This document shows, in pieces, positions 3,100 through 20,568 of a stretch of 20,568 nt of DNA. Location of the stretch: IMG/VR virus record IMGVR_UViG_3300025840_004406, positions 1 to 20,568 of that record; one strand, given 5' to 3'. The stretch is from a virus. The position numbers were made by a program, and so were the translations under genes. The notes beneath the pieces were generated by a model, which ran no database searches, was not told the origin of the DNA, and worked only from the letters and a program-made list of their open reading frames with translations. Numbering within the stretch: position 1 is the stretch's first letter; each line of letters starts with the position of its first letter.

Positions 3100-3934
3100 A
3101 GTGAGTTAAAATTGTGTTTTCAAGTATGTGTATAGTTTGTTTTCTCTGTCTAAATATCACGTCTAAATTTGGCAATGGTTTAACAACTTTATTTTCAATA
3201 CTGTAAGAGTTCTCATTACCAAACGCCAAGCAGTTATAAGAATTAATTTTGTAATTCATATTACCAAAGTTATCAACTTGTGCATTTTTATAATCTTTTA
3301 GATCAAGACTGTTAACAATAAAACTAGCAGTTGAAGAAAAAACATCGTTAGTATCAAGAATTATTGCAGGAACTTCATTGTCAACTTTTAATCTATCAAT
3401 CATGATGCTAAATCTATTATTGTTGCTTACCAAAGTATTATATGCTTCTCCCTGTTTGGTAAACTTGAAGCCTATGTCTTGATAGTGATCCATTACCTGT
3501 CTGTGATGTTGATTATACACAATGCCTGTTATGCGTTGTAACTCAGGTTTAGAAAAAGAAGGTAAGTCATATACTTTATGTCTTGACAATATATTTCTGA
3601 TTTTTGTATATTCTTCCTCATCAACAAACAGACTTCTAAATCCTGTTGAATTATCGAGGATATACATTGCTAAATCATCGTCATATTTGACAGGTAAGTG
3701 TTTGATATCATCTAATGTGGTAACAAAGCCTATACCAGAAATACCATCCTTTTCTGCGTTATCTGATCTACTTAACAGTATGATTGCATTTTTTTGAGTC
3801 CACAGTTGAGCATTATTTGTCTCACTTGAGGTACGCATACGAAAACCTAAAGCGGCAAGTTGCTCTCCTATATATTCATCTGAATATCTATTAGGATTAT
3901 AAGTGTATTCTAAAAATGCGTATTCTGATGTCAT
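3086..3934 (-). CDS. VOC-fold-like (4-HPPD-like) protein, tentative
   Basis: The first 80 of 282 residues read like the N-terminal module of the vicinal oxygen chelate/4-hydroxyphenylpyruvate dioxygenase superfamily. They show 'FLEYTYNP', an alpha-helix ending in 'LAALGFRMR', then 'AQLWTQKNAIILLS' and 'GISGIGFVT'. The family pattern is FxEFx..., LGF, S/N-xxLWrQGxInxVL and G-xG-xxFxV. A second, weaker copy of the order appears at about residues 145-215 (a D-x-GF-x-F motif, then 'NRFSIMIDRL', 'VPAIILDTND'), as expected for tandem modules. The metal ligands (two His and a Glu in HPPD) cannot be assigned by eye, so it may be non-enzymatic. Its ATG overlaps the A-type carrier stop (ATGA). It could instead be an unrelated phage protein. 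Confidence 0.4.
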   Translation of the reverse strand: MTSEYAFLEYTYNPNRYSDEYIGEQLAALGFRMRTSSETNNAQLWTQKNAIILLSRSDNAEKDGISGIGFVTTLDDIKHLPVKYDDDLAMYILDNSTGFRSLFVDEEEYTKIRNILSRHKVYDLPSFSKPELQRITGIVYNQHHRQVMDHYQDIGFKFTKQGEAYNTLVSNNNRFSIMIDRLKVDNEVPAIILDTNDVFSSTASFIVNSLDLKDYKNAQVDNFGNMNYKINSYNCLAFGNENSYSIENKVVKPLPNLDVIFRQRKQTIHILENTILTHYERN

Positions 3935-4296
3935 ATCTTAAATGTTACTGATTCACCACAACCACATGCACTGTCCGCAAGTGGAGCCTTTATTTCTATG
4001 TGTTGTCCAGCAATGCCAGTAACCAATTCAATGGTACTACCTGCTAGATATTCTTTGCTCAAAGTATCTAGATAAAATGTCCAACCAGTGTATTCTTTGC
4101 TGTAGTCAGTTAAATTTATATCAGATATGTCTTTGACTAACTTCCAGTCATACATAAATCCTGCACAACCGCCACCAGTTAAACTTAACTTAATACCTAT
4201 AGCATCTGCTTCTTCAGTTTGAATAAGAAAATGTCGCTGGGCACTTTCTGTTAAGGTTACAAGATCTTGCTTTGGGTTAAATGTTTTCACTTCCAT
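3931..4296 (-). CDS. A-type iron-sulfur carrier (IscA/SufA/HesB family)
   Basis: A-type carriers receive Fe-S clusters from scaffolds and pass them to apo-proteins. From the ATG at 4296 the protein is 121 aa and has all three family cysteines: C44 in 'LTGGGCAGFMYDW', and C111 and C113 in 'DSACGCGESVTF'. The family is normally about 105-120 aa. The frame stays open 24 codons further upstream to a TTG inside clpP, but those residues are not family-like, so I take the ATG; its ribosome-binding site is weak. It lies directly downstream of clpP and close to a SufE-like gene, so they probably share a transcript. It would act in the host cytoplasm, most likely maturing host or phage Fe-S enzymes during infection. 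Confidence 0.9.
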   Translation of the reverse strand: MEVKTFNPKQDLVTLTESAQRHFLIQTEEADAIGIKLSLTGGGCAGFMYDWKLVKDISDINLTDYSKEYTGWTFYLDTLSKEYLAGSTIELVTGIAGQHIEIKAPLADSACGCGESVTFKI

Positions 4297-4342
4297 ACTA
4301 CTATTTAACCAAATAAATGCATTGTTTAAGTAGTATGTGATA

Positions 4343-4930
4343 TCAACGACTTGTGATAATTTCGTCAACTAAGCCAAAGTCTAATGCCTCTTGAGCATTC
4401 ATAAAGTTATCACGATCCATTGCTGATTCGAACTCTTCGTATGTTTTTCCCTTGGTATTGTGTTTAACGTATGCTTCTGTGAGCTCACGTTTAATACGCA
4501 TAATTTCATTTGCACGAATTTGGATGTCGCTGGCTTGTCCTTGAGCACCACCTAGTGGTTGATGAATCATGTGTCTTGCTCCTGGCAACATAAAACGTTT
4601 ACCTGGTGCACCTGCGTTAGCAAGAAATGAACCCATGCTGGCCGCTTGTCCCATTACAATAGTTGATACTTCTGGCTTGATGTATTGCATTGTGTCGTAC
4701 ATGGCCATGCCTGCTGTTACAACACCTCCTGGTGAGTTGATATAAAAGTTAATATCAGTATCAGGGTCATCTGCTTCTAGGAAAAGTAACTGAGCACAAA
4801 TGCTATTTGACACTGCGTCATTAACTTCTCCATTTAAGAAAACAATTCTTTCTTTTAATAGACGACTGTAGATATCATAACTACGTTCGCCTGCCGATGT
4901 TTTTTCGATTACGTATGGAACAAAATTCAT
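4343..4930 (-). CDS. clpP: ClpP-type ATP-dependent protease subunit
   Basis: At 195 aa this is a full-length ClpP serine peptidase. The catalytic triad is intact: Ser98 in 'GQAASMGSF', His123 in 'MIHQPLGG' and Asp174 in 'MDRDNFMN'. The oxyanion-loop sequence '[19 protein letters not shown]' is canonical. The N-terminus ('[23 protein letters not shown]') carries the family's axial-loop and processing region, so the product should form or join a tetradecamer with ClpX/ClpA-type unfoldases. No phage unfoldase is visible, so use of the host ATPase is likely. A sigma70-like promoter lies just upstream and the ATG has ACAGG at about 9 nt. Confidence 0.95.
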
Positions 4931-4956
4931 TTATATTACCTGTGTGTTAAATGTTA

Positions 4957-4985
4957 ATTGTATAACAGTTTATTAATTATGTCAA
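4957..4985 (-). promoter_or_regulatory. sigma70-like promoter for clpP
   Basis: On the minus strand TTGACA (4980-4985) and TACAAT (4957-4962) are separated by 17 bp, which is consensus -35 and 5/6 -10 with optimal spacing. The -35 box overlaps the end of the SufE-like gene. The predicted start near 4950 leaves about 20 nt of leader containing ACAGG before the clpP ATG. Confidence 0.65.
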
Positions 4986-5374
4986 GAACTTAATGCAATA
5001 CTGTAAATCTTATTAATAAATTTTTGAAATGATCTTTTTCTTTCAAATAATAAAAATTTTGTTACGTGTTCAAAATCTCTAAACTTTATTTGTAAGACTT
5101 CTTCTTTGGTTTTATTGCTATAGACATCAGTAAGTATCTTACCTAGGCCTCTCACAAATCTACTGTCACAGGCAAATGTAAATTCCAATTTCCTGTCAGC
5201 ATTTAAGTTACCTGCTATCCATACAGGCGCACTGCACCCTGCTACAAATGCAGTATCAACTCTTTCTTCTGATAATACTCTTGTATCAGGAGCAATTGAA
5301 TTGAGCCATTCTACGTATTCAGTAGGATTAGTAATTGGCATTGCTTGTTTTGTGTATTCTTGTAAGTCTGACAT
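4982..5374 (-). CDS. SufE-like sulfur acceptor protein
   Basis: SufE takes persulfide sulfur from the cysteine desulfurase SufS and passes it to the SufBCD scaffold. This 130-aa protein has the SufE core. The active cysteine is Cys47 in 'VAGCSAPVWIAG' (family pattern V-x-GC-x-S-x-VW). It is followed by a beta strand and 'DSRFVRGLGKILTDVYSNKT', matching the D-S-D-A-x-x-V-x-G-L-x-A-x-L...Y...TP motif, and then by C-terminal helices. It is slightly shorter than cellular SufE (about 138 aa), mainly at the N-terminus. No SufS or SufBCD is in the window, so it would have to plug into host enzymes. A TATAAATA late-type box lies 5 nt before the ATG. Confidence 0.85.
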   Translation of the reverse strand: MSDLQEYTKQAMPITNPTEYVEWLNSIAPDTRVLSEERVDTAFVAGCSAPVWIAGNLNADRKLEFTFACDSRFVRGLGKILTDVYSNKTKEEVLQIKFRDFEHVTKFLLFERKRSFQKFINKIYSIALSS

Positions 5375-5379
5375 ACTGA

Positions 5380-5387
5380 TATTTATA
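5380..5387 (-). promoter_or_regulatory. T4-type late promoter box TATAAATA
   Basis: An exact TATAAATA on the minus strand lies five bases upstream of the SufE-like ATG and just after a hairpin. T4-type late promoters consist of essentially this box about 10 bp before the transcription start, which would put the start at the ATG. Confidence 0.6.
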
Positions 5388-5400
5388 TCCTACATAAGGA

Positions 5401-5424
5401 TGAGGCCCACTAATGTGAGCCTCA
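5401..5424. terminator. perfect-stem hairpin between the small membrane ORF and the SufE-like gene
   Basis: TGAGGC-c-CAC-TAAT-GTG-a-GCCTCA forms a 9-bp stem with a single mismatch and a 4-nt loop. It is the last element before the late box of the next gene on the minus strand, suggesting termination or 3'-end protection of the upstream transcript. The minus-strand U-tract is poor (TCCTTATG); the plus-strand side has TCTTTT a few bases later. Confidence 0.5.
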
Positions 5425-5431
5425 GTGTCTT

Positions 5432-5593
5432 TTAGATTAGCGGTTGCATTGCCACCACCATCATCCACACTGTTACAGCAGAAAGAAAAGCCATTGCAAG
5501 GTCGTCACAAAATTGTCCATCGTTGCAGATGCGTTCTTTAATAGTGTTCACAGAGTCGAAGAGTGATGAAGCAACCTTGGTTAAGGTCGTCAT
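5432..5593 (-). CDS. 53-aa single-span membrane peptide
   Basis: A complete ORF: ATG at 5593 with GGAG seven bases upstream, TAA at 5432-5434. The N-terminal half is polar (KVASSLFDSVNTIKERI) with two cysteines at residues 23 and 29. The C-terminal half, about residues 32-52 (LAMAFLSAVTVWMMVVAMQP), is a convincing transmembrane helix. It is followed directly by the 5401-5424 hairpin. I do not recognise it. Small phage membrane peptides of this kind can act in lysis timing, superinfection exclusion or host-pump inhibition, but nothing here chooses among these. Confidence 0.6.
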   Translation of the reverse strand: MTTLTKVASSLFDSVNTIKERICNDGQFCDDLAMAFLSAVTVWMMVVAMQPLI

Positions 5594-5662
5594 GTGTATT
5601 CTCCAGTCCTAAATTAAATTTAGCAACTTCGTTCACTGCCTCTTACGAGCACAGCTCAGTGT

Positions 5663-5683
5663 AAAAAAAGTTCCTTAACTTTT
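5663..5683 (-). terminator. A/T-rich hairpin with U-tract in the leader
   Basis: On the minus strand AAAAGTT-AAGG-AACTTTT is a perfect 7-bp stem with a 4-nt loop and three further T residues, the layout of a weak rho-independent terminator. It lies upstream of the 53-aa ORF, so it would end a short RNA or attenuate that gene. Confidence 0.45.
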
Positions 5684-5748
5684 GTTGACCTTCATACACA
5701 TACATAGTGTAGGCTCAAGGGCCCGAAGCATCAGCATTTACATTGTTG

Positions 5749-5773
5749 TGGAAGGGAAGTGCCCTACCTTCCA
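5749..5773. other. 7-bp inverted repeat downstream of the radical SAM gene
   Basis: TGGAAGG at 5749-5755 pairs perfectly with CCTTCCA at 5767-5773 around an 11-nt loop. It begins about 30 nt after the radical SAM stop on the minus strand and has no U-tract, so it is more likely an RNA structural element than a terminator. Confidence 0.45.
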
Positions 5774-5778
5774 ATGGA

Positions 5779-5786
5779 TATTTATC
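5779..5786 (-). promoter_or_regulatory. late-type box GATAAATA
   Basis: NATAAATA-type box on the minus strand about 20 nt after the radical SAM stop. It could start a late transcript through the structured leader into the 53-aa ORF. Confidence 0.45.
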
Positions 5787-5803
5787 AATAGTTAAAACAT
5801 CAG

Positions 5804-7270
5804 TTAAGTTTTATGGTAATTTTTGAACCATTCAGTTTTTTTATCAATGTAGTCCCTTCTGACTTTAGTAGCAACTGTGATAGATCTTGTTTCAATAATT
5901 TTGTGTGATGCCAGATACTCAGGTACATTGGTTGTTATTCCGTGTGCCATAAAGTTGAGATACTCGAATGCACTTATCATAGGAACATGGTGTGCTGTCA
6001 TGTATGCTTGAGCTCTGTCTCTGATTTTGAATGCACTGTTAAAATCAGTCCAATTATTTTTCCAATGCAGTAATTCCATACTGCCTCTGTATATTTCTGA
6101 ACCTATGATCTCATAACCATACTTCTCAGGATTAGCACTCAATGCACTAATATAGTTGTCATCATATACATCGCTGTTGGGTTTATCTAGTTGCAGTATG
6201 CTGAGGAACATACCGTCTAATAACTTTTCATCTACAATTCTTCTAATGTTGGTTTGAAAGGTGGCTTCGGTTTCGCCTTGCAAGCCAACAATAATGCCAC
6301 TGGTGATCAGTGTGTTAGGTGACAGTTTTTTTAATTTTTTCAGTATGTCTACAGTTTTCTCAGTGTTGCCACTTTTGTTTGCAAACTTAGAACTAGAACT
6401 TTCTAGTGTTTCTATGCCAAAACTCACGCCCGATATCTTTAATTGTTCCCATAGTTCTTGTTGCTCTTGCATACCAAACAACTCAACTCTAAAAAAGCCT
6501 GCCATCTTTGGATCAAAGTCAACAGCATTTTGTGCATCTAGTAGTATTTGTAATTTTTTTGTGTCTTCATTACACGTATCGTCAGCAAGATAAAAATGTT
6601 CTGTGCCATATTTTTTGTTCATGTGTTCCATAAACTGTGCAATGTATTTTGATTCTTGCAATAATGGATTTTTGGTATTGCGTAAATCAAAACTGCAAAA
6701 ACTGCAATTAAACTTACAGCCTAATCCTATTTCAAAACCCACAATATCTTTACTGGTAATAAAGTCACTGTCTCTGAAATAGCCTATCACAGGCTTTTCT
6801 ATGTTTACATCTACATTGCGATTTAAGAATACATTAGGGTATTTGGTAGCATACTTTATCATGTCACCACCATCTAACCACGTTTCAAATATCTCCATAC
6901 TGCGTCCAATAAAAAAGTAATCTACAACATTTGAGAGTCCTTTTTCAAAGAATCTATTACCACCTAGTATGGTTTTGACATATGGTAATTCTTGCTTAAC
7001 TTGCAATAAAACGTCCTCAATTTCATATGTAACGTTGTTACTAAATGGCGTACTAATTGCAATAATTGGGTCTTTAGAATCCTTAAGGTAAGATATTATA
7101 CATTCTAGCAGTGTATCATGTGGCCATCTACTGAACCAATCGATAATTGTGTTTTCTATGCCACGTTGATCGAGACGTCTTGCAACATCTGTGGCACCTA
7201 TATTTCTATAAGTGTTACTTACATACAGGCCTTCGCCTACAGTGTTTTCACTGAGTATTAATACTTTCAC
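5804..7270 (-). CDS. radical SAM protein (B12-binding-like N-terminus), unknown substrate
   Basis: This 488-aa protein has the radical SAM cluster motif C-x3-C-x2-C at Cys185, Cys189 and Cys192 in 'GLGCKFNCSFCSFDLR'. Typical downstream elements follow: 'FYLADDTCNED', 'GVSFGIETLESSS' and 'ITSGIIVGLQGETEATF'. Residues 1-130 look like the Rossmann-type domain found before many radical SAM cores ('IAISTPFSNN', 'VKTILGGNRFF'), but the cobalamin-binding D-x-H-x-x-G is absent. It would use a [4Fe-4S] cluster and SAM to modify an unknown substrate. The start is GTG at 7270: no earlier start fits, no Shine-Dalgarno is seen, and a TATAAGTA box lies five bases upstream. It is a possible client of the Fe-S proteins encoded nearby. 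Confidence 0.85.
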   Translation of the reverse strand: MKVLILSENTVGEGLYVSNTYRNIGATDVARRLDQRGIENTIIDWFSRWPHDTLLECIISYLKDSKDPIIAISTPFSNNVTYEIEDVLLQVKQELPYVKTILGGNRFFEKGLSNVVDYFFIGRSMEIFETWLDGGDMIKYATKYPNVFLNRNVDVNIEKPVIGYFRDSDFITSKDIVGFEIGLGCKFNCSFCSFDLRNTKNPLLQESKYIAQFMEHMNKKYGTEHFYLADDTCNEDTKKLQILLDAQNAVDFDPKMAGFFRVELFGMQEQQELWEQLKISGVSFGIETLESSSSKFANKSGNTEKTVDILKKLKKLSPNTLITSGIIVGLQGETEATFQTNIRRIVDEKLLDGMFLSILQLDKPNSDVYDDNYISALSANPEKYGYEIIGSEIYRGSMELLHWKNNWTDFNSAFKIRDRAQAYMTAHHVPMISAFEYLNFMAHGITTNVPEYLASHKIIETRSITVATKVRRDYIDKKTEWFKNYHKT

Positions 7271-7655: not shown

Positions 7656-8564
7656 TTAACTCCTAAGATATATATCTAATTGTTCTAGGTCCTCATAACG
7701 TGAACCATCGAACGGGTGTACAAGATTGAAAGGATTTGCTCGTTTGTAAGTAGTACTCCTCACTCTGTCAGCGACAGCCTGAACAATCGCTTTATCTTGC
7801 TCATTTAGTTTTTCCATATTAACACCGCCTCTCATAAGAGTGAACAGTGCAATATCGAACTCCAAGTAACTGAAACCAAATTGGTCTTCGTCACCATTGG
7901 CAATACCTAAACCGTCTGTAGGCACCGCCTCCACAATTGATTGTGGTACATTGAGATATTCTGCTAATGCAGGAATCTCCCAACTTTTTGTCATTGCTTG
8001 GATAGGTGAGACGTCACCAACGTCACCATGCAATGTCCAAAAACCTGCGGCAAGTTCACTAAAGTTATCTGTGCTGGCTACAAGGCCACCTTTAGCACTT
8101 GCTAAATCATATAGGGTAATCATTCTCAGTCTTGCCCTGATATTACCTAGTCTAATCTTGTCGTCTTCTCCAAAGTTGTAAATATTATTGCTTACATAAT
8201 CAAAAATTTCTGTGAGATCTTTTTCTAAATGATTGATACCTAATGCTTCACAAAGTTCTTTTCCTCTGGCAGTTTCTTCCGGGTTTTGGTGTATAGGCAT
8301 CAATACGCCTGTTACAGTCCAACCTGCATTCTTGAAAAGTGCGGCAGTAACAGCACTGTCAATACCACCGCTGATACCGATAACAACATTTTCAATATTG
8401 TATTTTAGTTTGTATTTTGCAAGTTCGCTAACAATTGATCTGCTGAGTTCAGCGATATTGTTATGATAGACTCCGAAAGAAATTAATTCTGTAAGTTTGT
8501 CTTGAAACCAAGGTGATAATTCAGGTTGCCTGTTATACCTTAATATATTTTCTTGTATGCTCAT
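7656..8564 (-). CDS. nadE: NH3-dependent NAD+ synthetase
   Basis: NadE makes NAD+ from nicotinic acid adenine dinucleotide with ATP and ammonia. This 302-aa protein has the N-type ATP pyrophosphatase P-loop SGGIDS at residues 65-70. It also has the family segment 'STDNFSELAAGFWTLHGDVGDVSPI' in pieces that match GTDN-x-SE-x-x-x-G-x-x-T-x-x-GD and D-x-x-P. The glutamine-amidotransferase domain of long NadE forms is absent. It would raise NAD supply during infection. It is preceded by two AATAAATA boxes and followed at 4 nt by the EF-hand gene. Confidence 0.93.
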   Translation of the reverse strand: MSIQENILRYNRQPELSPWFQDKLTELISFGVYHNNIAELSRSIVSELAKYKLKYNIENVVIGISGGIDSAVTAALFKNAGWTVTGVLMPIHQNPEETARGKELCEALGINHLEKDLTEIFDYVSNNIYNFGEDDKIRLGNIRARLRMITLYDLASAKGGLVASTDNFSELAAGFWTLHGDVGDVSPIQAMTKSWEIPALAEYLNVPQSIVEAVPTDGLGIANGDEDQFGFSYLEFDIALFTLMRGGVNMEKLNEQDKAIVQAVADRVRSTTYKRANPFNLVHPFDGSRYEDLEQLDIYLRS

Positions 8565-8589: not shown

Positions 8590-8597
8590 TATTTATT
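8590..8597 (-). promoter_or_regulatory. second late-type box AATAAATA overlapping the guaC stop
   Basis: This box covers the TAA stop of guaC on the minus strand, 25 nt from the nadE start, a better distance for a late promoter with a short leader than the nearer copy. Confidence 0.4.
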
Positions 8598-9711
8598 CAC
8601 CTACAGTAAATGGTTCGTAAGTTGTATTAAACTGCTTTCCGTTATTAACCTGCACAAAAGTTGTGCGTTTACTTAATTCTTTTAGACTCTTTGCACCAAC
8701 ATAAGTACAAGTACTGCGGAGACCACCAAGTATGTCTCCGATAACGGGTTCAATAGGACCTTTGTAAGGTACTCGTACAACTCTACCTTCACTTGCTCTG
8801 TACTCTTTTGTTCCACCATGTTTCTCCTGTGCTGATGTAGAACTCATGCCATAGAATTCTACAAAACTTTTTTCTACGGTTTGTCTGCTACCACTTGCCG
8901 CACCGGTATTTTTCTCATCAGTGTAATAATATTTAGTGGTAACTTTGCCTCCGCCTTCATCTGTACCTGCTAACATACCACCCAGCATTACAAAATCGGC
9001 ACCTGCTCCAAATGCTTTGGCTACATCTCCAGGACTACTACAACCGCCATCAGCAATGATGTGTCCACCAAGACCGTGAGCGGCGTCAGCACACTCAATG
9101 ACTGCGGATAACTGCGGGTACCCAACACCAGTCTTAATCCTAGTAGTACAAACACTGCCAGGCCCAATACCAACTTTAACGATATCTGCTCCATTTAGTA
9201 TCAACTCCTCTGTGATATCAGGTGTTACAACATTACCTGCAATAATTGTTACGTTTGGATTATTTTCTCTAAACTTTTTAACAAAGTCTATGAACCTTTC
9301 CGAATATCCATTTGCTACATCAATGCAAACAAAGTCAATGCTTCTGCTTAATTTAAGTGTTTTTGTTACACGTTCTAAATCAAAGTCTGTGATACCAGTG
9401 CTTACAGCAATAGTTTTACATAGATCATCTTTGTATGGATTGTTGTTTAGCCAATCCCAAATGTCTGCTGGGTCATAACTTTTTGCTAAACAAGTAAACA
9501 TACCTTTTTTTGCAAGTGGTAGTGCCATTTCAAATGTGCCAACACCATCCATGTTAGCGGCCATGATAGGTACACCACTGTATGTTTTACCACTGTTTCT
9601 AAAAGTGTATGTTCGATGTAAATCAACATCTTTGCGACTGCCAATTTCGCTACGTTTAGGTCTAAACAGCACATCACTGTAATCTAATTTTACATCACGT
9701 TCAATCCGCAT
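8593..9711 (-). CDS. guaC: GMP reductase
   Basis: GuaC reduces GMP to IMP with NADPH. The 372-aa protein matches the E. coli/animal-type enzyme along its length: '[20 protein letters not shown]', '[13 protein letters not shown]', '[13 protein letters not shown]' and '[20 protein letters not shown]', with catalytic Cys188. '[13 protein letters not shown]', 'FYGMSS' and '[12 protein letters not shown]' follow. CBS domains of IMP dehydrogenase are absent. It is about 25 residues longer than E. coli GuaC (347 aa), mostly from an insertion at about 255-275 before FYGMSS. It would feed guanine nucleotides, for example from degraded host nucleic acid, back to IMP and adenine nucleotides. It starts 11 nt inside the SGNH gene. 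Confidence 0.93.
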
Positions 9712-12789: not shown

Positions 12790-12866
12790 AGAAAGCATGG
12801 AAGAAATTTGATCGGCTAATGAAGTCCGGTAGACTTAACAAGGTTGCTAATTTAGTCTTGAATTAA
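12786..12866 (+). CDS. 26-aa basic peptide coupled to the secreted protein
   Basis: The ATG overlaps the preceding TGA as ATGA, a coupling layout seen throughout this window. The peptide is Lys/Arg-rich with bulky hydrophobic residues (MKKAWKKFDRLMKS, then NLVLN), consistent with an amphipathic helix. Its TAA shares TTAA with the stop of nfuA on the other strand. The ORF is short enough to be chance; the coupling and basic composition argue for it. Confidence 0.4.
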   Translation: MKKAWKKFDRLMKSGRLNKVANLVLN

Positions 12867-13444
12867 CGATAATAGGCGTTACTGGTATCTGTGTGATCAG
12901 TAATATCTTTAACGCCTTTAATCTCAGGCACTGCTTTCATAATAGTGTCTTCAACAACATGCTTTAATGTTGCATCAACAGCACTACATCCTTGACACCC
13001 GCCACCAAAACTGATAATGGCAACATCTTCATCTGTGATTTCAACAAGTGAAACTTCGCCGCCATGCATCTTTACCATTTCGTTTACATCATTGTATAGT
13101 ACATAATTAACTTTATCTGATAAAGTTGCATCAGGACCTACTTGAGGTAGTTTACTGTTAGGTGCTTTGATAGTAAGAGTACCACCTGCAAAGTCTTCAT
13201 CATAATTAATCAGTGCATCTTCTAAGTATTTTACACTATCAACCACTGCATATACATCAAGTGGACCAAACGACTCTTTTACATCTGTTTCTTTCACTGT
13301 GGATTCTTTAGCATAAGTTAATAATGTTTCGGCACGTGGTGTACCAGGCTTGTCCACAAACAATCTCACACCAATGGCTTCACTATTCTTGCTTAACAAA
13401 TTGCTGAGATATTCTCTTGCTGATTCTGTTACTGTTATATTCAT
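12863..13444 (-). CDS. nfuA: Fe/S biogenesis protein NfuA
   Basis: NfuA carries [4Fe-4S] clusters to target enzymes. This 193-aa protein has both E. coli-type domains. Residues 1-95 are a degenerate A-type domain without its cysteines ('GVRLFVDKPGTPRAE', 'TLTIKAPNS'). Residues 105-193 are an Nfu domain with C150 and C153 in 'ISFGGGCQGCSAVDATL', followed by 'VPEIKGVKDITDHTD'. Length and both motifs agree closely with the 191-aa E. coli protein, whose cysteines are at almost the same positions. The ATG overlaps the dCMP deaminase stop (ATGA). It is the last gene of the 15424-12863 unit. Confidence 0.95.
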   Translation of the reverse strand: MNITVTESAREYLSNLLSKNSEAIGVRLFVDKPGTPRAETLLTYAKESTVKETDVKESFGPLDVYAVVDSVKYLEDALINYDEDFAGGTLTIKAPNSKLPQVGPDATLSDKVNYVLYNDVNEMVKMHGGEVSLVEITDEDVAIISFGGGCQGCSAVDATLKHVVEDTIMKAVPEIKGVKDITDHTDTSNAYYR

Positions 13445-13848
13445 ACTTTTATTACCTCAATGCCACTGTCTATTAAAAATTGTTTGCCTGTGCCTTTTGC
13501 GGCTTGATATTCTTCTCGGTAGTACACAGTGACTATACCACTTTGATGAATAAGTTTAGCACATTCTATACACGGCAAATGTGTACAGAAGATTTCCGAA
13601 CCTCTGCTACTTTCATTGCTTTGTGCTACTTTAGCAATGGCATTTGTTTCTGCATGTAATACTTCAGGCTTGGTTTTACCGTCATGTTCACAATCGTTGT
13701 CCCATCCTGAGGGCATTCCATTATATCCTATACTTATGATACGTTTGTCTTTTACAATGATTGCCCCTACTTTAGCACGTTGAGCAGAACTCAGTCGTGC
13801 AAAACGTTCTGCAACATCCATAAATGCATTTATGAATTTATCTTTCAA
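13441..13848 (-). CDS. dCMP deaminase
   Basis: The enzyme converts dCMP to dUMP for thymidylate synthesis, as in T4 (gene cd). The 135-aa protein has the zinc site of the family: His65 and Glu67 in 'VLHAETNAI' and Cys93 and Cys96 in 'HLPCIECAK'. It also has the typical 'KVGAIIVKDKRIISIGYNGMP' opening, here in an uninterrupted match. The start is a TTG overlapping the upstream TGA (TTGA). The first Met codon at residue 10 would remove part of the conserved N-terminal helix. It sits between the APS-kinase-like fusion and nfuA. Confidence 0.93.
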   Translation of the reverse strand: MKDKFINAFMDVAERFARLSSAQRAKVGAIIVKDKRIISIGYNGMPSGWDNDCEHDGKTKPEVLHAETNAIAKVAQSNESSRGSEIFCTHLPCIECAKLIHQSGIVTVYYREEYQAAKGTGKQFLIDSGIEVIKV

Positions 13849-14627
13849 AGGTCGCCGTCCTTCCTCATTTGTTCTCTAATTTTTGTTGCACTAATTTCGT
13901 GTGTAGCATCATCAAACACTTCTTGTTCAATTTTATAACCAACACCACGACCATATGTAATGTTCATGATATTTGGCACAATGCTAATTTTAACTTTACC
14001 AGCAAATTTTACCAACTGCTCTTTTAGATTACTAACAACTGCCGCTTGATCAAACGGATTGCTATCATCTTTTGGCATGTCTCTGACCATTAGCCAAACT
14101 TGTCCATGTTTTGCTATTGCTCTATCAAACAGTGCTTGGTGTCCATCATGCCATGGTTGCCATCTGCCTAACATTTGTGTAGTTGGTGCTTTGTTGTCCC
14201 AAATAAATTTTTCGCCAATAATCCATGCAATCTTTTTAGCATCAACATCACCACGTTGACTTCTCACAATGTAACTGCAATCACCTACGTTGGGTCTTTC
14301 AAACACTTTGTTAGTGTCTTCAAACCTGCCTTCGGCAATGGTGTCTACCCATATGGTATAATCTGCACCAAATTCTTCACGAGCTTTATCAAAAGGACAA
14401 ACAAAATCTGCGATTGCAATTTTGCCTTCTTCTTCTGCACCTTCACAGAGCAGTTGCATTCTCTGTTTTTGTCTTAGTCTACCTTCGTCTGAAAAGTCCC
14501 AATCATTTGCATCACTGCGAACTTGATCAGCATTAAACCAAGCAACTTGATCTCCTAATATATTTACTAGTTCTTTTGCTAGGTACGTTTTGCCACTCCC
14601 TGGCAACCCAAATATTAATATTTTCAT
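13845..14627 (-). CDS. APS-kinase-like P-loop domain fused to a nucleotidyltransferase domain
   Basis: Two domains are visible in 260 aa. Residues 1-145 are an adenylylsulfate-kinase-like P-loop kinase with Walker A GLPGSGKT (7-14) and 'WFNADQVRSDANDWDFS' in the position of the APS kinase D-G-D-N-x-R segment. Residues 150-260 are an NMNAT/cytidylyltransferase-type domain with H160-D-G-H163 in 'LGRWQPWHDGHQALF' and the C-terminal 'ISATKIREQM' (I-S-x-T-x-I-R) motif. Similar fusions occur in marine phages as I recall. The product may be an activated sulfate, sugar or nicotinamide nucleotide; the substrate is unknown. It neighbours a DUF2061 gene, a family found near sulfate-activation genes. Confidence 0.75.
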   Translation of the reverse strand: MKILIFGLPGSGKTYLAKELVNILGDQVAWFNADQVRSDANDWDFSDEGRLRQKQRMQLLCEGAEEEGKIAIADFVCPFDKAREEFGADYTIWVDTIAEGRFEDTNKVFERPNVGDCSYIVRSQRGDVDAKKIAWIIGEKFIWDNKAPTTQMLGRWQPWHDGHQALFDRAIAKHGQVWLMVRDMPKDDSNPFDQAAVVSNLKEQLVKFAGKVKISIVPNIMNITYGRGVGYKIEQEVFDDATHEISATKIREQMRKDGDL

Positions 14628-14992: not shown

Positions 14993-15424
14993 TTATCCTT
15001 TGTATCGCTCGGTTAAATATTGTTCGTGCTGTTTCCATTCACCGTTATCTACAAATCCCCATTCTCTTAATTGGGGGCCTGGAATAAAAAGAGTCCAGCA
15101 ATCAACGCCAGGTTCCAACTCAATACGGTGTAGGCTACGACTGCCAGCAATGCGTCCTTGACCAGGGGACCTCCATTTTCGCTCGCCAGTCGCAAGGTGC
15201 TCCCAATAGCCACCTTTAAGGATAATAGTGCAATAAGGCCAAGGGTGATCATGTAAATCATCTGGGTCTCCTTTGTGAAAGTTGTGTAAGAAAATGTTAA
15301 ACGGAAACCATTTACGTTCTTTTAGAAACAAATAGTATCTCGTCAAGTAAGGTTCATTATCAAGTCTATCCATGATAACTCTCTTACGTCCTAATTTTTC
15401 CAGAAGTCTGAGTATAAAATTCAT
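14993..15424 (-). CDS. cupin-fold phage protein
   Basis: The 143-aa product has cupin motif 1 as 'GDPDDLHDHPWPYCTIILKG' (G-x5-H-x-H...G) and a later His in 'SRSLHRIELEPG' in the position of motif 2. The family glutamate of motif 1 is not evident. Similar short cupins, with an N-terminal basic helix followed by 'NEPYLTRYYLFLKER', are common in phages, and no reaction is known to me. The first ATG is preferred because this N-terminal segment is typical. A sigma70-like promoter lies six bases upstream and no Shine-Dalgarno is present. Confidence 0.75.
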   Translation of the reverse strand: MNFILRLLEKLGRKRVIMDRLDNEPYLTRYYLFLKERKWFPFNIFLHNFHKGDPDDLHDHPWPYCTIILKGGYWEHLATGERKWRSPGQGRIAGSRSLHRIELEPGVDCWTLFIPGPQLREWGFVDNGEWKQHEQYLTERYKG

Positions 15425-15430
15425 AATATA

Positions 15431-15458
15431 AGTATACGCTCTTTTAGTGTGATGTCAA
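15431..15458 (-). promoter_or_regulatory. sigma70-like promoter for the cupin operon
   Basis: TTGACA (15453-15458) and TATACT (15431-15436) on the minus strand with a 16-bp spacer. The promoter overlaps the last codons of the DUF6580 gene and its -10 box ends six bases before the ATG at 15424, so the transcript should be leaderless. Confidence 0.65.
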
Positions 15459-15914
15459 GTGTTTGCTGTTTGCAAATAATATCCTTACACTATCAAACAA
15501 TGCTAGGAACAGCATTGTGCTAACTAGCAATCTTACATCAAATAACATTGCTTCTGCTGTAAATGGTGCAAAACCATGCCCTGTAACGTACACAGATGCG
15601 TTTACAGCAACGTGCCAAATCAGTACACTCAATGCACCAGACACATAAATGTTCTTGTTAAAACTGCTTATAATAGGTGCTAGACCCATACACAAGTATA
15701 CAATAGGCATTACATCGTAGAATCCTAACACAATATCAGATAAGAACAATATTGATAAAGGAAAAAGTACTTGCGTCAACCTGTTTGTTATTAATTGAGG
15801 AATAAAAATGGCTGACGCAAGTATGGGTGTAAAATTATCGGGTAACCCGATAAACCTACTCACCAAAATTGCACCAAATAATAGTGCAAAACTACTTAGA
15901 TAATTGTACAACAT
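15444..15914 (-). CDS. DUF6580-family membrane protein (putative transporter)
   Basis: This protein is almost entirely hydrophobic, with five or six transmembrane segments over 156 aa. It has the family's signature 'SRFIGLPDNFTPILASAIF' (R-x-x-x-x-P-x-NFTPI-x-A-x-A-x-F) and 'FLSDIVLGFYDVMPIVY' (LSD-x-x-LG-x-x-x-x-x-P-x-VY). NCBI calls this family a putative transport protein, and its topology recalls ECF-transporter S components. I chose the ATG at 15914, preceded by AAGGAG; a GTG at 15947 would add 11 polar residues. It overlaps the cytidylyltransferase gene by about 20 nt. Confidence 0.7.
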   Translation of the reverse strand: MLYNYLSSFALLFGAILVSRFIGLPDNFTPILASAIFIPQLITNRLTQVLFPLSILFLSDIVLGFYDVMPIVYLCMGLAPIISSFNKNIYVSGALSVLIWHVAVNASVYVTGHGFAPFTAEAMLFDVRLLVSTMLFLALFDSVRILFANSKHLTSH

Positions 15915-16362
15915 CACTCCTTGTGTTTTCTTCTGCTTCAGCAACACGTCTTCTCAAACTGGTGCTACTAAAACTGTGGTCTCTACCATTGTAAATAATT
16001 TTGCTACCACGTTGTTTAGCAATGTCTTTACCGGTAAAGTCTTTATTCTTGTATTCGTCACCAAGTATACGAACATCAATAGGTAATGTGAGAAGCAAAT
16101 CAATGAGATCTTGTTCTGTTGAATAGATAACAATCTCATCTACGTATTTCACAGCACTTAATTGTATCTGTCTTTCAACAATGGTTTGCACAGGTTTGTT
16201 TTTACCTGCCCTATCTAGTGTAGGATCAGTCTGCAAACCCACAATCAAGTAATCACAATGTCTTTTTGCTTCTTCTAGCATAGTGATATGACCTGCATGT
16301 AGCAAATCAAATGTGCTACATGTAAATCCTATTGTGCCTACGCCTTTATAATCCAGTTTCAT
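15892..16362 (-). CDS. cytidylyltransferase (TagD/RfaE-C-like)
   Basis: The 156-aa protein has the nucleotidyltransferase fold of glycerol-3-phosphate and heptose nucleotidyltransferases. 'GFTCSTFDLLHAGHITMLEE' carries H-x-G-H at residues 22-25, followed by 'DYLIVGLQTD' and a late 'RDHSFSSTSLRRRV' at the position of the R-T-x-G-I-S-T-T-x-I signature. It would activate a sugar or polyol phosphate as a CDP (or ADP) derivative. The ATG at 16362 fits the domain start. The frame is open further upstream, but those residues lie inside the preceding gene. It overlaps that gene by 17 nt, which suggests a joint carbohydrate pathway. Confidence 0.88.
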   Translation of the reverse strand: MKLDYKGVGTIGFTCSTFDLLHAGHITMLEEAKRHCDYLIVGLQTDPTLDRAGKNKPVQTIVERQIQLSAVKYVDEIVIYSTEQDLIDLLLTLPIDVRILGDEYKNKDFTGKDIAKQRGSKIIYNGRDHSFSSTSLRRRVAEAEENTRSDVVQLSK

Positions 16363-17491
16363 TTTCAATACCCAATGTAATGTTTGGATTGGTGTTCTCA
16401 TTGACAAAATCAAACACATGTTGTACATGCTTGATGTCATCTTCATTTACAACTCTGGTTACTTCGTTTGCAAAGTGTAATTCAACACCGTTGTCAACTG
16501 CAAGTTTCAGCAACTCATACCTTCTAAATGGATTGTCTGGTAAACAATAGATACTGCATAACACAATACCTTCAACACCGTATCCAGTAATCATTTTTTC
16601 TAAGCCTGGGAACCAATTGAGATATTCATTTTCAAATTGATAGTCATTTATTTCAATGCCAAACTTATTTGTATATTGTGCAATTATAGCACGTTGCATC
16701 GGTAAGGGCAAGTGTTCACTCCACTTGCTGTTCCAACCTGCATAAGTGATCCATTTTTTAGTGGTGTCTATTTCACGTTTGTCATCACGTTCTCCAACAA
16801 ACCTAAAATAACCACCGGGTAGTTTTCTGTGATAATGTTGTCCTTTAGGAAGAATTCTGCCATCCATGCTCCAACGTGTGATCTCTGTGTCATTGTTGAA
16901 GTTACCGTGAATGTGATGTTGTTGAAACAAGTGTGCTTGTCCTGGATCTAGTGTTACAGGATAAACATGCTTACTGCATTCATCTTGAATCTTATCATAA
17001 TCCCATTGTTCTCTGTATGCATTTGCTGTGAGCTCATCAGATGTTTCCCAATCCATAATTTGCATACTGTTATTGCCATAGCATTTTGTAAATGGTGTCC
17101 AAATTGTTCTAAGACCTAAGCCATTACCTACCCATATACCTTGATGGAATGCCAGTAGTCTACCTACTTTTGCTTGATTAGGTATAACAATTCTCACAGT
17201 AAAGAATCGTTGCAACATCCAATCATCTTCATCTATAAGTCCAGGTACATAATCCCCAAAATATGAATCAATTCTAGATTGTAGTTCTTCTGTGTCAAAC
17301 TGCATTTGGCAATGTTTGCCCAGTTCGCTAATCTCTCTTGGTGAAAGAATTTCGTGTATTGTTTCTAGTTGTTCTATTTGAGGGAATTTGTCCTGTGCAA
17401 CGGACAGCCAATATGCAGGCCAATTGTGTTTTTCGAGATCGTAGTTGAGAGTTTGATTATCCCATCTACTATCTAATTGATTAATGCTCAT
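16346..17491 (-). CDS. 2OG-Fe(II) oxygenase fused to sporadic-carbohydrate-cluster (LIC12192-like) domain
   Basis: The 381-aa protein appears to join two families. Residues about 35-240 resemble PhyH-type 2OG-Fe(II) oxygenases: 'LAFHQGIWVGNGLGLRTIWT', 'NNSMQIMDWETS', 'GQAHLFQQHHIHGNFNN' with distal His195, and 'ITRWSMDGRI' with the 2OG-binding Arg206. The usual H-x-D is H116-Q-G here. Residues about 245-365 resemble the LIC12192 'sporadic carbohydrate cluster' family: 'WSEHLPLPMQRAIIAQYTNK', 'YQFENEYLN', 'VEGIVLCSIYCLPDN', 'GVELHFANE'. The two families are neighbours in bacterial clusters as I recall. The ATG at 17491 is preceded by GAGGA. It probably modifies a surface sugar. The oxygenase half is more certain than the second half. 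Confidence 0.7.
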   Translation of the reverse strand: MSINQLDSRWDNQTLNYDLEKHNWPAYWLSVAQDKFPQIEQLETIHEILSPREISELGKHCQMQFDTEELQSRIDSYFGDYVPGLIDEDDWMLQRFFTVRIVIPNQAKVGRLLAFHQGIWVGNGLGLRTIWTPFTKCYGNNSMQIMDWETSDELTANAYREQWDYDKIQDECSKHVYPVTLDPGQAHLFQQHHIHGNFNNDTEITRWSMDGRILPKGQHYHRKLPGGYFRFVGERDDKREIDTTKKWITYAGWNSKWSEHLPLPMQRAIIAQYTNKFGIEINDYQFENEYLNWFPGLEKMITGYGVEGIVLCSIYCLPDNPFRRYELLKLAVDNGVELHFANEVTRVVNEDDIKHVQHVFDFVNENTNPNITLGIENETGL

Positions 17492-17551: not shown

Positions 17552-20500
17552 ATGGCACAGCATAAGGACTATGGTTTAATTGGTGCAGGTAGAAATCTGC
17601 AACTTGGTAAACTAGGACCCAAATTAGAAGGTAATGCAGATTCAGGTGCAATCACTGTGAGTTCTGCAGGTGGCACATTGTCTGTTATGCGAGGTGCTAA
17701 TGCAGAAAATTCTACAGATTTTGTAACCAAAGCACAACTTGATATAGTATCAAGTTCATCAGCAACAGACGGATTTAGTCTACAATTAGGCAACGTTGAT
17801 GCAAGTGGTGACGGCGATTGGCATATCACACCTAATCAAGGTGACTATGATGGCAACAGCAGTGTGCTTAGACAGGGTGCAATAACATCATTTACCAACA
17901 CTCACAATGTCTCAGAAGCAATTGACAAACTGAACGAAGCAGTTCTAAACGTATATAATAATACATTTGTGCGTGATTTAGATTTCACAGTTGATACTGA
18001 CACGGGCGGTAGCCCATTAGTCAGCACATTAACTATTACTGCCACAGGTAATGCTAATAGATACACAATTGATTGGGGTGATGGCAGTTCAACAACTGCT
18101 ACAACAGATAGCACTCCAACGCATACTTATACTGATAACACTAACTCACCATTTGATGTACAAGTTACAGCATTTAATAATTCAGGTGCTGGTGAGGGTA
18201 GTTCAGCAAGTTTAACAAAACAAGATTTCATTACATTATATACTGCTAACCCAGTTGCTGACTTTGACTTTTATGCGGCGGCAAGTGGTGGTTCAGCAGT
18301 GACATTTGTTGATGATGGTACAGCATTGTATTTTGAAAATACAACTACTAACATCGGCGATGCAACTGTACAATATACAATCGACTGGGGCGACAGTGAA
18401 GCAAACAGCACTATCACAAATGACAGTTTCCCAGGCGGTACAGCAGGTAGTAGACTTGCTCATACATTTACAACGTCAACAGAACAAGAGCAAAGTTATA
18501 CAGTATTACTGAGTTTAGACAGTCACAGTACTGCCGACCCAGCAGTAATACCTTCTACTACTACATCAACAATTAAAGTTTATGATACGCATACTCCAGA
18601 AGTGTCATTAGATGATAACAGTGGTATTAACGAACAAGCAACATCAGGACATGTTGTTACCTTCACAAACAACACTGAGAACACAATTGGTAGTTATGCA
18701 GATTACGGAATTCAATACAGATACAACTGGGGGGATGGCACCACAACTACAGTGAATGTAGGTAGCGGTAGTGATGGCGATACAGGTGACACAATCAGTC
18801 ACACTTATGATCTATCAGGTGCTCAACAAGCGGCAGGCACAGCAGTTGACTTTACAGGTAACTTGGAAGTTATCTCAAATCACAGCAGTTCACCATTTAA
18901 GAGTTCAGACTTCACTGTACACGTTGAACCAGATGTGAGAGCAACCATCACAGGTTCAAGTACAACTGCAAGCCTCAAGTCAAGCAATGACAGTGTAAGA
19001 ACTGTGTACAAAGGCACAGACTTGTCAGGAGACAACCGTGCTGTTCTTACTGTAGATAATACTACACAAAATGGTGATAGTTACGAATATGATTTTGGTG
19101 ATGGCAGTGCAAATGTCACTGTCACAGAAGCAAGTAGTGGTGCAGGTAGTGTAGCAGGTGCTAACATCACACACGATTACAGCAGTGCTTCAACAGGTAG
19201 CAAAACAGTCACAATGACTGCAAGTGGTACACCAGATCTTACTGCACAATCTGACAGTGATAGTTTCACAGTTGTTGTAGAAGATGTACCGGCCGCACCA
19301 GCAGGATTAAGTTCAAAAAGTATTACATGGAATACCTCAGCACAAGGTACTTCACCAAAACTGGCATCAGGATATAATGATGCAGGTTCAACAAGTTTAA
19401 CAGCAGGTGACAGTCTAAACACTTCGACTGTTATCAGAAGAGACAGCACTGTGGCAATTGACACATCAACTGTGGCAGATGCATATAACAGTGCAACTGG
19501 TACATTGAGTGCATTGTGGGATGGTAGCACAGATGGTAGCAAAGCATTCAGTACAGCAACTGGTGAAACAGGCACATTTGATAGCCTTGTTATCACATCA
19601 GAAGGTGATGCATACAGTGAGATAAGTTCAACAACTTATCCGCAAAACTTCTATCAAGTGTTTAGTGCTAAGATTTCAAACAGCATGGCAGATCAAGACT
19701 ATGGTGCTCACAAAGCCAAGTTAAGTCACGACGCAACAGGTGACACTAACGAAGTATTTGTGGTATACGATAACCTAACAACTACTCCAACAGTTGATAT
19801 CAGTGGTGCTTCTCTTGTAGAAGAAACACAAGGAACCTATCGTTATATTTCAGGCATACCATATTACAACACAGGTAGCCCACAGGTCAAAGTTGTGGGT
19901 GCCACAGTCACTAACTGGATAGGACAGGCTTACAGAGATACTGTACAAGTTTGGTTTAACAGTGATGGTACCAACTATGAGAGTACATCACAAGCGGCTA
20001 TCCAAGAAGAATACAGAAGTTATGCAGATATCAACGGTGCAGTAAGCATGTTGGCATCTGGTGTACCTACAGCAAACGTTGGTATTAGTTCAGCATACGC
20101 ATTAGGCAATGTCACAGTTGATATCACAACAAACAGCAACGTTAAATCAGTTGAAACAATCAAGTTCCAAATGCAAAACGTTAATGGTGCAGGTGCAATG
20201 AGTTCAGAAACTTCTGAGAAAATACAAGTTTATACAGCAACACCAACAGGATTAGATGCAGAAGAAATTGCAGTAAGCGACAGTCTTGGTGCTACATTTG
20301 ATGATGATGGTGTGAGAGTTACAGGATTTGGTGATGCATCAGATACTCCAGCATTTGATAACAGTGTGAACAACTACACTGCAAACGTTTGGAGTGGTGC
20401 AGAAACCATTGCAGGCACAAGTGAAGCAGTATGTAGATTTGGTAACCTTGTACATTATGATGTAGATCACAGTTCAGATTGGTTACCAGTAGGTCCAGAC

Positions 20501-20568
20501 TTAGCAACAGGCAGAAGTGGTGCTCAATACTTTACTTTTGCATTTAGAAGAACCACAATGAGTAACTT
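17552..20568 (+). CDS. large PKD-repeat tail fibre/structural protein, 3' end outside the window
   Basis: The frame is open from ATG 17552 (GGAG upstream) to the window end, giving at least 1,005 residues. Residues 1-65 ('YGLIGAGRNLQLGKLGPKLE', then 'DFVTKAQLD') and 120-145 ('VSEAIDKLNEAVLNVYNN') resemble segments of marine T4-like phage tail or fibre proteins. At least four PKD-type domains follow, marked by D/N-W/F-GDG/S at residues 174-178, 278-282, 392-396 and 514-518, each followed by a (T/S)H-x-Y/F-type strand. The remainder is Ser/Thr/Asp/Gly-rich and beta-like. PKD domains are Ig-like spacers or carbohydrate binders, so a host-receptor or capsid-decoration role is likely. It is the only long plus-strand gene. 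Confidence 0.8.
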   Translation, partial: MAQHKDYGLIGAGRNLQLGKLGPKLEGNADSGAITVSSAGGTLSVMRGANAENSTDFVTKAQLDIVSSSSATDGFSLQLGNVDASGDGDWHITPNQGDYDGNSSVLRQGAITSFTNTHNVSEAIDKLNEAVLNVYNNTFVRDLDFTVDTDTGGSPLVSTLTITATGNANRYTIDWGDGSSTTATTDSTPTHTYTDNTNSPFDVQVTAFNNSGAGEGSSASLTKQDFITLYTANPVADFDFYAAASGGSAVTFVDDGTALYFENTTTNIGDATVQYTIDWGDSEANSTITNDSFPGGTAGSRLAHTFTTSTEQEQSYTVLLSLDSHSTADPAVIPSTTTSTIKVYDTHTPEVSLDDNSGINEQATSGHVVTFTNNTENTIGSYADYGIQYRYNWGDGTTTTVNVGSGSDGDTGDTISHTYDLSGAQQAAGTAVDFTGNLEVISNHSSSPFKSSDFTVHVEPDVRATITGSSTTASLKSSNDSVRTVYKGTDLSGDNRAVLTVDNTTQNGDSYEYDFGDGSANVTVTEASSGAGSVAGANITHDYSSASTGSKTVTMTASGTPDLTAQSDSDSFTVVVEDVPAAPAGLSSKSITWNTSAQGTSPKLASGYNDAGSTSLTAGDSLNTSTVIRRDSTVAIDTSTVADAYNSATGTLSALWDGSTDGSKAFSTATGETGTFDSLVITSEGDAYSEISSTTYPQNFYQVFSAKISNSMADQDYGAHKAKLSHDATGDTNEVFVVYDNLTTTPTVDISGASLVEETQGTYRYISGIPYYNTGSPQVKVVGATVTNWIGQAYRDTVQVWFNSDGTNYESTSQAAIQEEYRSYADINGAVSMLASGVPTANVGISSAYALGNVTVDITTNSNVKSVETIKFQMQNVNGAGAMSSETSEKIQVYTATPTGLDAEEIAVSDSLGATFDDDGVRVTGFGDASDTPAFDNSVNNYTANVWSGAETIAGTSEAVCRFGNLVHYDVDHSSDWLPVGPDLATGRSGAQYFTFAFRRTTMSN

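Follow-up and report, generated by a model that had tools for sequence, protein, structure and literature searches.

A two-domain protein was found in a virus record (G000), in which a PhyH-fold Fe(II)/2-oxoglutarate (2OG) enzyme with the iron motif HxG in place of HxD is fused to a C-terminal TIGR04323 domain. The reading preferred here, to which a probability of about 0.4 is given, is that the protein may modify an activated sugar in a phage-encoded surface-glycan pathway by halogen transfer. The window (the whole stretch of DNA that was analysed, 20,568 nucleotides) also encodes a head-maturation protease at positions 4343-4930. The features of the fused gene and of the genes around it are listed in Table 1.

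Table 1. Coordinates and supporting data for the fused gene, its functional sites, and neighbouring genes.
Feature	Position	Strand	Data
Fused protein, 381 aa: N-terminal PhyH-fold Fe(II)/2OG enzyme and C-terminal TIGR04323 domain	16346..17491	(-)	AF2 pLDDT 88.9, pTM 0.87
TIGR04324 match, residues 39-230	16802..17377	(-)	E 1.3e-21; Foldseek neighbours PtlH, CurA halogenase, SyrB2
TIGR04323 match, residues 259-360; resolvase-like fold	16412..16717	(-)	NCBIfam match; domain modelled separately and Foldseek
Iron-ligand motif H116-Q117-G118, HxG replacing HxD	17138..17146	(-)	Alignments, codon survey
H195, distal iron ligand	16907..16909	(-)	Invariant in alignments A1 and A3
R206, predicted 2-oxoglutarate-binding Arg, H+11	16874..16876	(-)	Invariant in A1 and A3; role inferred from PhyH family
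RfaE-domain-II/HldE-like nucleotidyltransferase, overlaps fusion by 17 nt	15892..16362	(-)	TIGR02199 E 2.9e-24; phrog_7878 E 8e-35
DUF6580 membrane protein, third gene of the run	15444..15947	(-)	PF20221 E 7.7e-14, above cut-off
Cupin-like protein (PHROG 'cysteine dioxygenase'), fourth gene	14993..15424	(-)	phrog_4786 E 1e-36
Fibre-like structural ORF, divergent, 60 bp from fusion	17552..20566	(+)	phrog_8578, unknown function

Domain Organization and Separate Homologues

The fusion ORF was present where the preliminary description had located it, with an ATG start at 17491. Mechanically, the open frame extends to 17563; its relatives start at the MSINQL-type methionine, which corresponds to position 17491. 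The NCBIfam profiles TIGR04324 (profile positions 39-231 of 248) and TIGR04323 (positions 14-116 of 122, near full length; E 1.2e-11) both matched within one stop-free open frame, and the two families named in the preliminary description are truly fused. The scores were 77.3 bits against a curated cut-off of 150 for TIGR04324 and 44.6 bits against 55 for TIGR04323; because neither cut-off is reached, the two domains are treated as homologues and not as certified family members. The fused protein was unrecognised in the Pfam and PHROGs profile searches.

A precedent for this gene order exists in bacteria. Among the 398 genomes surveyed, a TIGR04324 gene above the cut-off was detected in six proteobacterial genomes, and in all six it is immediately followed by a separate TIGR04323 gene, in the same order as in the fusion and with 31 nt between the match ends. 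The earlier claim that the two families are neighbours in bacterial carbohydrate clusters is thus borne out in every surveyed genome with a true TIGR04324. The order of the bacterial clusters was also observed in two phage-like contigs (L169 and L170, positions 3312-7006), which carry unfused genes for a split transketolase, TIGR04324 (HGD motif), TIGR04323 (found with the original C-domain profile), and a methyltransferase, as well as an ORF resembling an HNH/AP2 homing endonuclease.

The C-domain modelled alone had a pLDDT of 82.7, and its 18 best PDB matches in Foldseek were all N-domains of serine recombinases (3guv, E 3.4e-4; also 3bvp and 2rsl). The resolvase fold was thus assigned by structure comparison; a PDB sequence search with the domain gave a chance dynein match only. 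The catalytic serine and the key arginines of recombinases were not found in the aligned register, the profile alignment being weak, non-significant, and made with two approximate resolvase sequences. The domain is probably a repurposed resolvase fold and no recombinase. An objection raised in the preliminary description, that the C-terminal part is no more than the natural end of a longer oxygenase, is scarcely credible. Fused members lacking this part were seen only as truncated copies, as such a tail would predict; on the other hand, the region is matched by TIGR04323 and, in the model, folds alone as a resolvase-like domain, and it was on the TIGR04323 genes standing alone downstream in bacteria and in L169/L170 that the native-tail reading was rejected.

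Occurrence of the Fusion

The phyletic survey revealed the fusion to be recurrent in uncultivated viral contigs, in more than 100 loci and down to ~42% identity. The first IMG/VR scan, with patterns avoiding the iron motif, yielded 42 loci, and the second, profile-based scan yielded 198 stretches with relatives, of which 80 were retained. The second scan used an HQG-containing pattern, which biases its motif tally; the first, motif-free scan agrees with it. Both domains were present in 117 of the 125 matching open frames from viral loci (73 distinct sequences, as some contigs are present twice). The remaining eight frames were truncated, mostly at contig ends, and included the broken copy in L039. 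An assembly chimera was ruled out by the many independent contigs and the prevalence of two-domain frames.

The fused query gave zero matches in 50,697 deposited phage records (INPHARED) and 72,556 plasmids, and the bacterial-type query gave zero matches in the plasmid collection. A scan of 84,980 prokaryote species, which relies on two short patterns and may therefore have missed members, recovered two fused copies. One copy is located on a chromosome contig of a Roseivirga MAG, and the other on a viral-looking contig in a Pelagibacter MAG.

In loci L003-L009 and L039, another fused gene stands in tandem upstream of the fusion, and its product has ~40% identity with the window protein; HQG is kept in this second copy, and its C-domain has diverged (NYIDMET vs TYAGWNS). 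The tandem copies could possibly be partners working together.

Iron Site and Its Reversal

The full-length AF2 model matched PhyH-type 2OG enzymes (double-stranded beta-helix) in the PDB, with PtlH, the CurA halogenase domain, and SyrB2 among the best Foldseek matches. Sequence profile matches of the N-domain had E-values of 5.4e-6 for PtlH, 0.02 for CytC3, and 0.78 for SyrB2. The first iron motif is H-S-D or H-A-D in bacterial TIGR04324 proteins and H-V-D in a SAR11-like relative that is more distant; in gap-free alignment with the bacterial proteins, the fused proteins have H-Q-G. All unfused relatives with a readable motif, near and distant, carry HxD, once HxE. Of the 70 distinct fused genes, 68 have glycine at this position, and each of the four Gly codons occurs there. 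Residues H116, W131, P133, G184, F189, H195, N200, R206, S208, and R212 are invariant and common to the fused and bacterial TIGR04324 proteins. The two His ligands, the Arg for 2OG, and the residues beside them stay invariant amid many synonymous changes; the dS estimate was saturated in three of five pairs. The iron site is not decaying, because H116, H195, and R206 are invariant, and, as judged from the aligned genes, Gly118 is kept by strong purifying selection and does not reflect decay.

Of the features expected of Fe(II)/2OG halogenases, the 2OG fold, the HxG motif, both histidines, and the predicted 2OG Arg are present in the fusion. An HxG in a PhyH fold would be read as a Fe/2OG-halogenase signature, yet it is no proof. 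The preliminary description overlooked this site: with HQG for HxD, the iron-binding carboxylate is absent, and plain 'oxygenase' may be the wrong reaction class.

An H-K-D motif was found in L030, L031, and the broken second copy of L039, which is split into two frames (L039:2024-3150). In the tree, the HKD clade is nested in the HQG clade with support of 97/88, and because of this nesting, parsimony gives one basal D-to-G change and one G-to-D return. The bacterial outgroup stands very far from the rest of the tree, on long branches that are unreliable; the deep placement is unsure, and the HKD nesting is independent of that placement. Among positions conserved at 90% or more, the HKD clade departs from the HQG group only at 117, 118, 119, and 121 and, conservatively, at 130. 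The differences at conserved sites thus lie almost all in the metal loop, and the change was focused there.

Genomic Context

As the preliminary description had it, the fusion is followed by an overlapping nucleotidyltransferase gene and then by a membrane protein gene. The nucleotidyltransferase most likely starts at 16362, which gives the 17 nt overlap. Its score of 85.5 bits against the TIGR02199 equivalog cut-off of 181.5 permits a family-level assignment only, and the HldE-like protein of the bacterial clusters (83 bits) belongs to the same RfaE-domain-II family.

The bacterial clusters contain genes for SDRs, a split transketolase, DegT/PseC-like aminotransferases, and a methyltransferase or radical SAM protein, together with an HldE-like adenylyltransferase-kinase and a GmhA-like isomerase. 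The Roseivirga copy (L044) is located in a polysaccharide locus with an ABC-2 exporter, glycosyltransferases, GDP-mannose dehydratase, and a sulfotransferase. An SDR gene adjoins the fusion in many phage relatives, some of which have DHQ-synthase-like cyclase, DegT, and radical SAM genes nearby, and a phosphorylase-superfamily (PNP/MTAN-type) gene is found close downstream of the fusion in several. The surface-sugar role suggested earlier fits the bacterial HldE/GmhA/PseC-like clusters, the Roseivirga polysaccharide locus, and the phage sugar-gene islands. A sugar explanation does not account for the freshwater-type loci L119-L124 and L145-L150, in which the fusion was observed beside ClpX-, Hsp20-, and ClpS-like genes (identified by eye) with no evident sugar genes.

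Islands of up to 6 kb around the fusion were observed in L125, L126, L128, L131, L133, L139, and L142. They include a DHQ-synthase-like sugar-phosphate cyclase, a DegT-type fragment, radical SAM genes, an SDR, and an amidinotransferase-like protein (by eye; no Pfam match), and they may encode a phage pathway leading to a compound that resembles an aminocyclitol.

Further genes observed in the window encode an Fe-S biogenesis NfuA-like protein (12863-13444), a two-part protein with an APS-kinase-like P-loop domain ahead of a nucleotidyltransferase-like one (13845-14627; phrog_10255), and NAD-synthetase-like (7656-8564) and dehydrogenase-like (8593-9711) phage proteins. In related contigs, cysteine desulfurase-like and SufT-like genes were observed near the fusion.

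The fibre-like ORF does start 60 bp away on the opposite strand, as had been noted. The special link to fibres proposed with it did not hold up across the relatives: a fibre-like gene is the immediate neighbour of the fusion in only 9 of ~90 mapped loci and is absent from most others. An obligate fibre partner was therefore unsupported, and decoration of fibres by the fused enzyme is but weakly suggested.

Proposed Function and Alternative Explanations

We infer that the fused enzyme probably acts on a sugar substrate. Its reaction is tentatively put down as halogenation (or transfer of another anion), which ranks first, ahead of carboxylate-free hydroxylation. The substrate would be an activated sugar, either a sugar phosphate or a nucleotide sugar. 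The iron of the N-domain would be held by two histidines, H116 and H195, and Gly118 would leave vacant the iron position usually taken by a carboxylate, into which chloride or bromide could enter. With 2OG and O2, a haloferryl would be formed, which would abstract hydrogen from the sugar and transfer the halogen to it. For the C-terminal TIGR04323 domain, a serine-recombinase fold apparently without the catalytic residues, we propose a role in binding or positioning the substrate or its carrier. Somewhat more doubtful is a wider proposal, according to which the fused proteins may form an aquatic-phage clade of Fe/2OG halogenases chlorinating or brominating an activated sugar, with a single origin from a bacterial-type HxD carbohydrate oxygenase that was fused to its partner, and with one lineage having gone back to HxD.

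A carboxylate-free hydroxylase resembling AspH seems a rather unlikely, if serious, competitor. In such an enzyme, two histidines and water would be bound to the iron, a similar sugar would be hydroxylated, desaturated, or epimerised, and HxG would alter the kinetics and not the reaction class. The HxD of the unfused relatives and the hydroxylase activity of PtlH, the nearest solved relative, agree with it, and, to judge from the HKD clade, proteins with D and with G may be able to fill related roles. AspH belongs to a different branch of the superfamily. Human AspH, with its HXG...H motif, nevertheless provides a precedent (PMC10947486), whereas the HxG/A examples with a PhyH-like fold named in the cited literature are halogenases, and the Gly is under strong purifying selection, which also speaks against this competitor.

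That the target is not a sugar, being instead a nucleotide, a protein residue (e.g., of the fibre), or a lipid, is improbable: sugar genes surround both parent families, the Roseivirga copy, and the cassettes in which bacteria and phages carry the two genes unfused, and the fibre gene is no neighbour in most relatives, although it lies close by in the window, a PNP/MTAN-type gene follows in several relatives, and nucleotide halogenases are among the known HxG enzymes (PMC11186838). Very unlikely is a non-catalytic scaffold, in which the N-domain would be reduced to a pseudoenzyme with binding of 2OG, metal, or a glycan as its sole function. The canonical ligand is indeed lost in nearly all fused members; however, neither the two His nor the 2OG Arg nor the residues around them vary despite many synonymous changes, the loop was changed in concert in the HKD clade, and Gly is present at 100% in the HQG group, which is unexpected under decay.

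No mention of TIGR04323 or TIGR04324 was found in the open-access papers searched, and, as far as searches show, the fusion and the phage HxG variant are undescribed, while their parts are of known kinds. The fusion links TIGR04323 and TIGR04324 to one substrate or reaction, and the HxG site offers a concrete and inexpensive way of testing whether phages have a new reaction class. Should the protein prove to halogenate, it would be a radical halogenase encoded by viruses, from which halogenated surface sugars of aquatic microbes might arise; to our knowledge, it would then be the first virus-encoded Fe/2OG halogenase. If the proposal is true, the fused proteins would contain a natural two-way hydroxylase/halogenase switch. 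The HQG and HKD viral lineages are a natural system for learning what beyond the Asp-to-Gly change decides between halogenation and hydroxylation.

Comparison with Known Systems

Bacterial TIGR04324 proteins are homologous to the fused protein over residues 39-230; they are unfused and have HxD where the fusion has HxG. TIGR04323 (the LIC12192 family) is homologous over residues 259-360 and occupies the same place after TIGR04324, but its bacterial genes are separate and encode ~130 aa. The C-domain has its fold in common with the N-domain of serine recombinases, and the fusion is without their DNA-binding part.

Halogenases have Gly/Ala at the Asp/Glu position of HxD/E, which lets halide bind the iron (PMC12346261, PMC8407142, PMC4019311). 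SyrB2, CytC3, and CurA Hal share with the fusion the PhyH-like fold (by Foldseek), Gly/Ala for the carboxylate, and the two retained histidines; the sequence similarity to SyrB2 and CytC3 is weak (E-values given above). SyrB2-type enzymes use carrier-bound substrates, and SyrB2 with the carboxylate restored lost halogenation and did not gain hydroxylation (PMC4019311). Nucleotide halogenases of the AdeV/AdaV type have HXG like the fusion and chlorinate the sugar moiety of a nucleotide (PMC8407142, PMC11186838); those of the cited papers are non-viral. An HXG/A filter applied within one family led to assay-confirmed nucleotide halogenases acting on deoxyribose (PMC11186838), while a preprint warns that calls made on the HXA/G motif only give false positives (PMC12871659).

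Human AspH has the same two-His HXG...H iron site as the fusion but hydroxylates Asp/Asn residues and is of a different family, and FIH with the Asp changed to Gly retains some activity (PMC10947486). VirX1, the flavin-dependent halogenase of cyanophage Syn10, which was named the first viral halogenase, is encoded by an aquatic phage, as is the fusion (PMC8407142); its flavin chemistry is directed at aromatics, and its fold and mechanism are unrelated to those of the fused protein.
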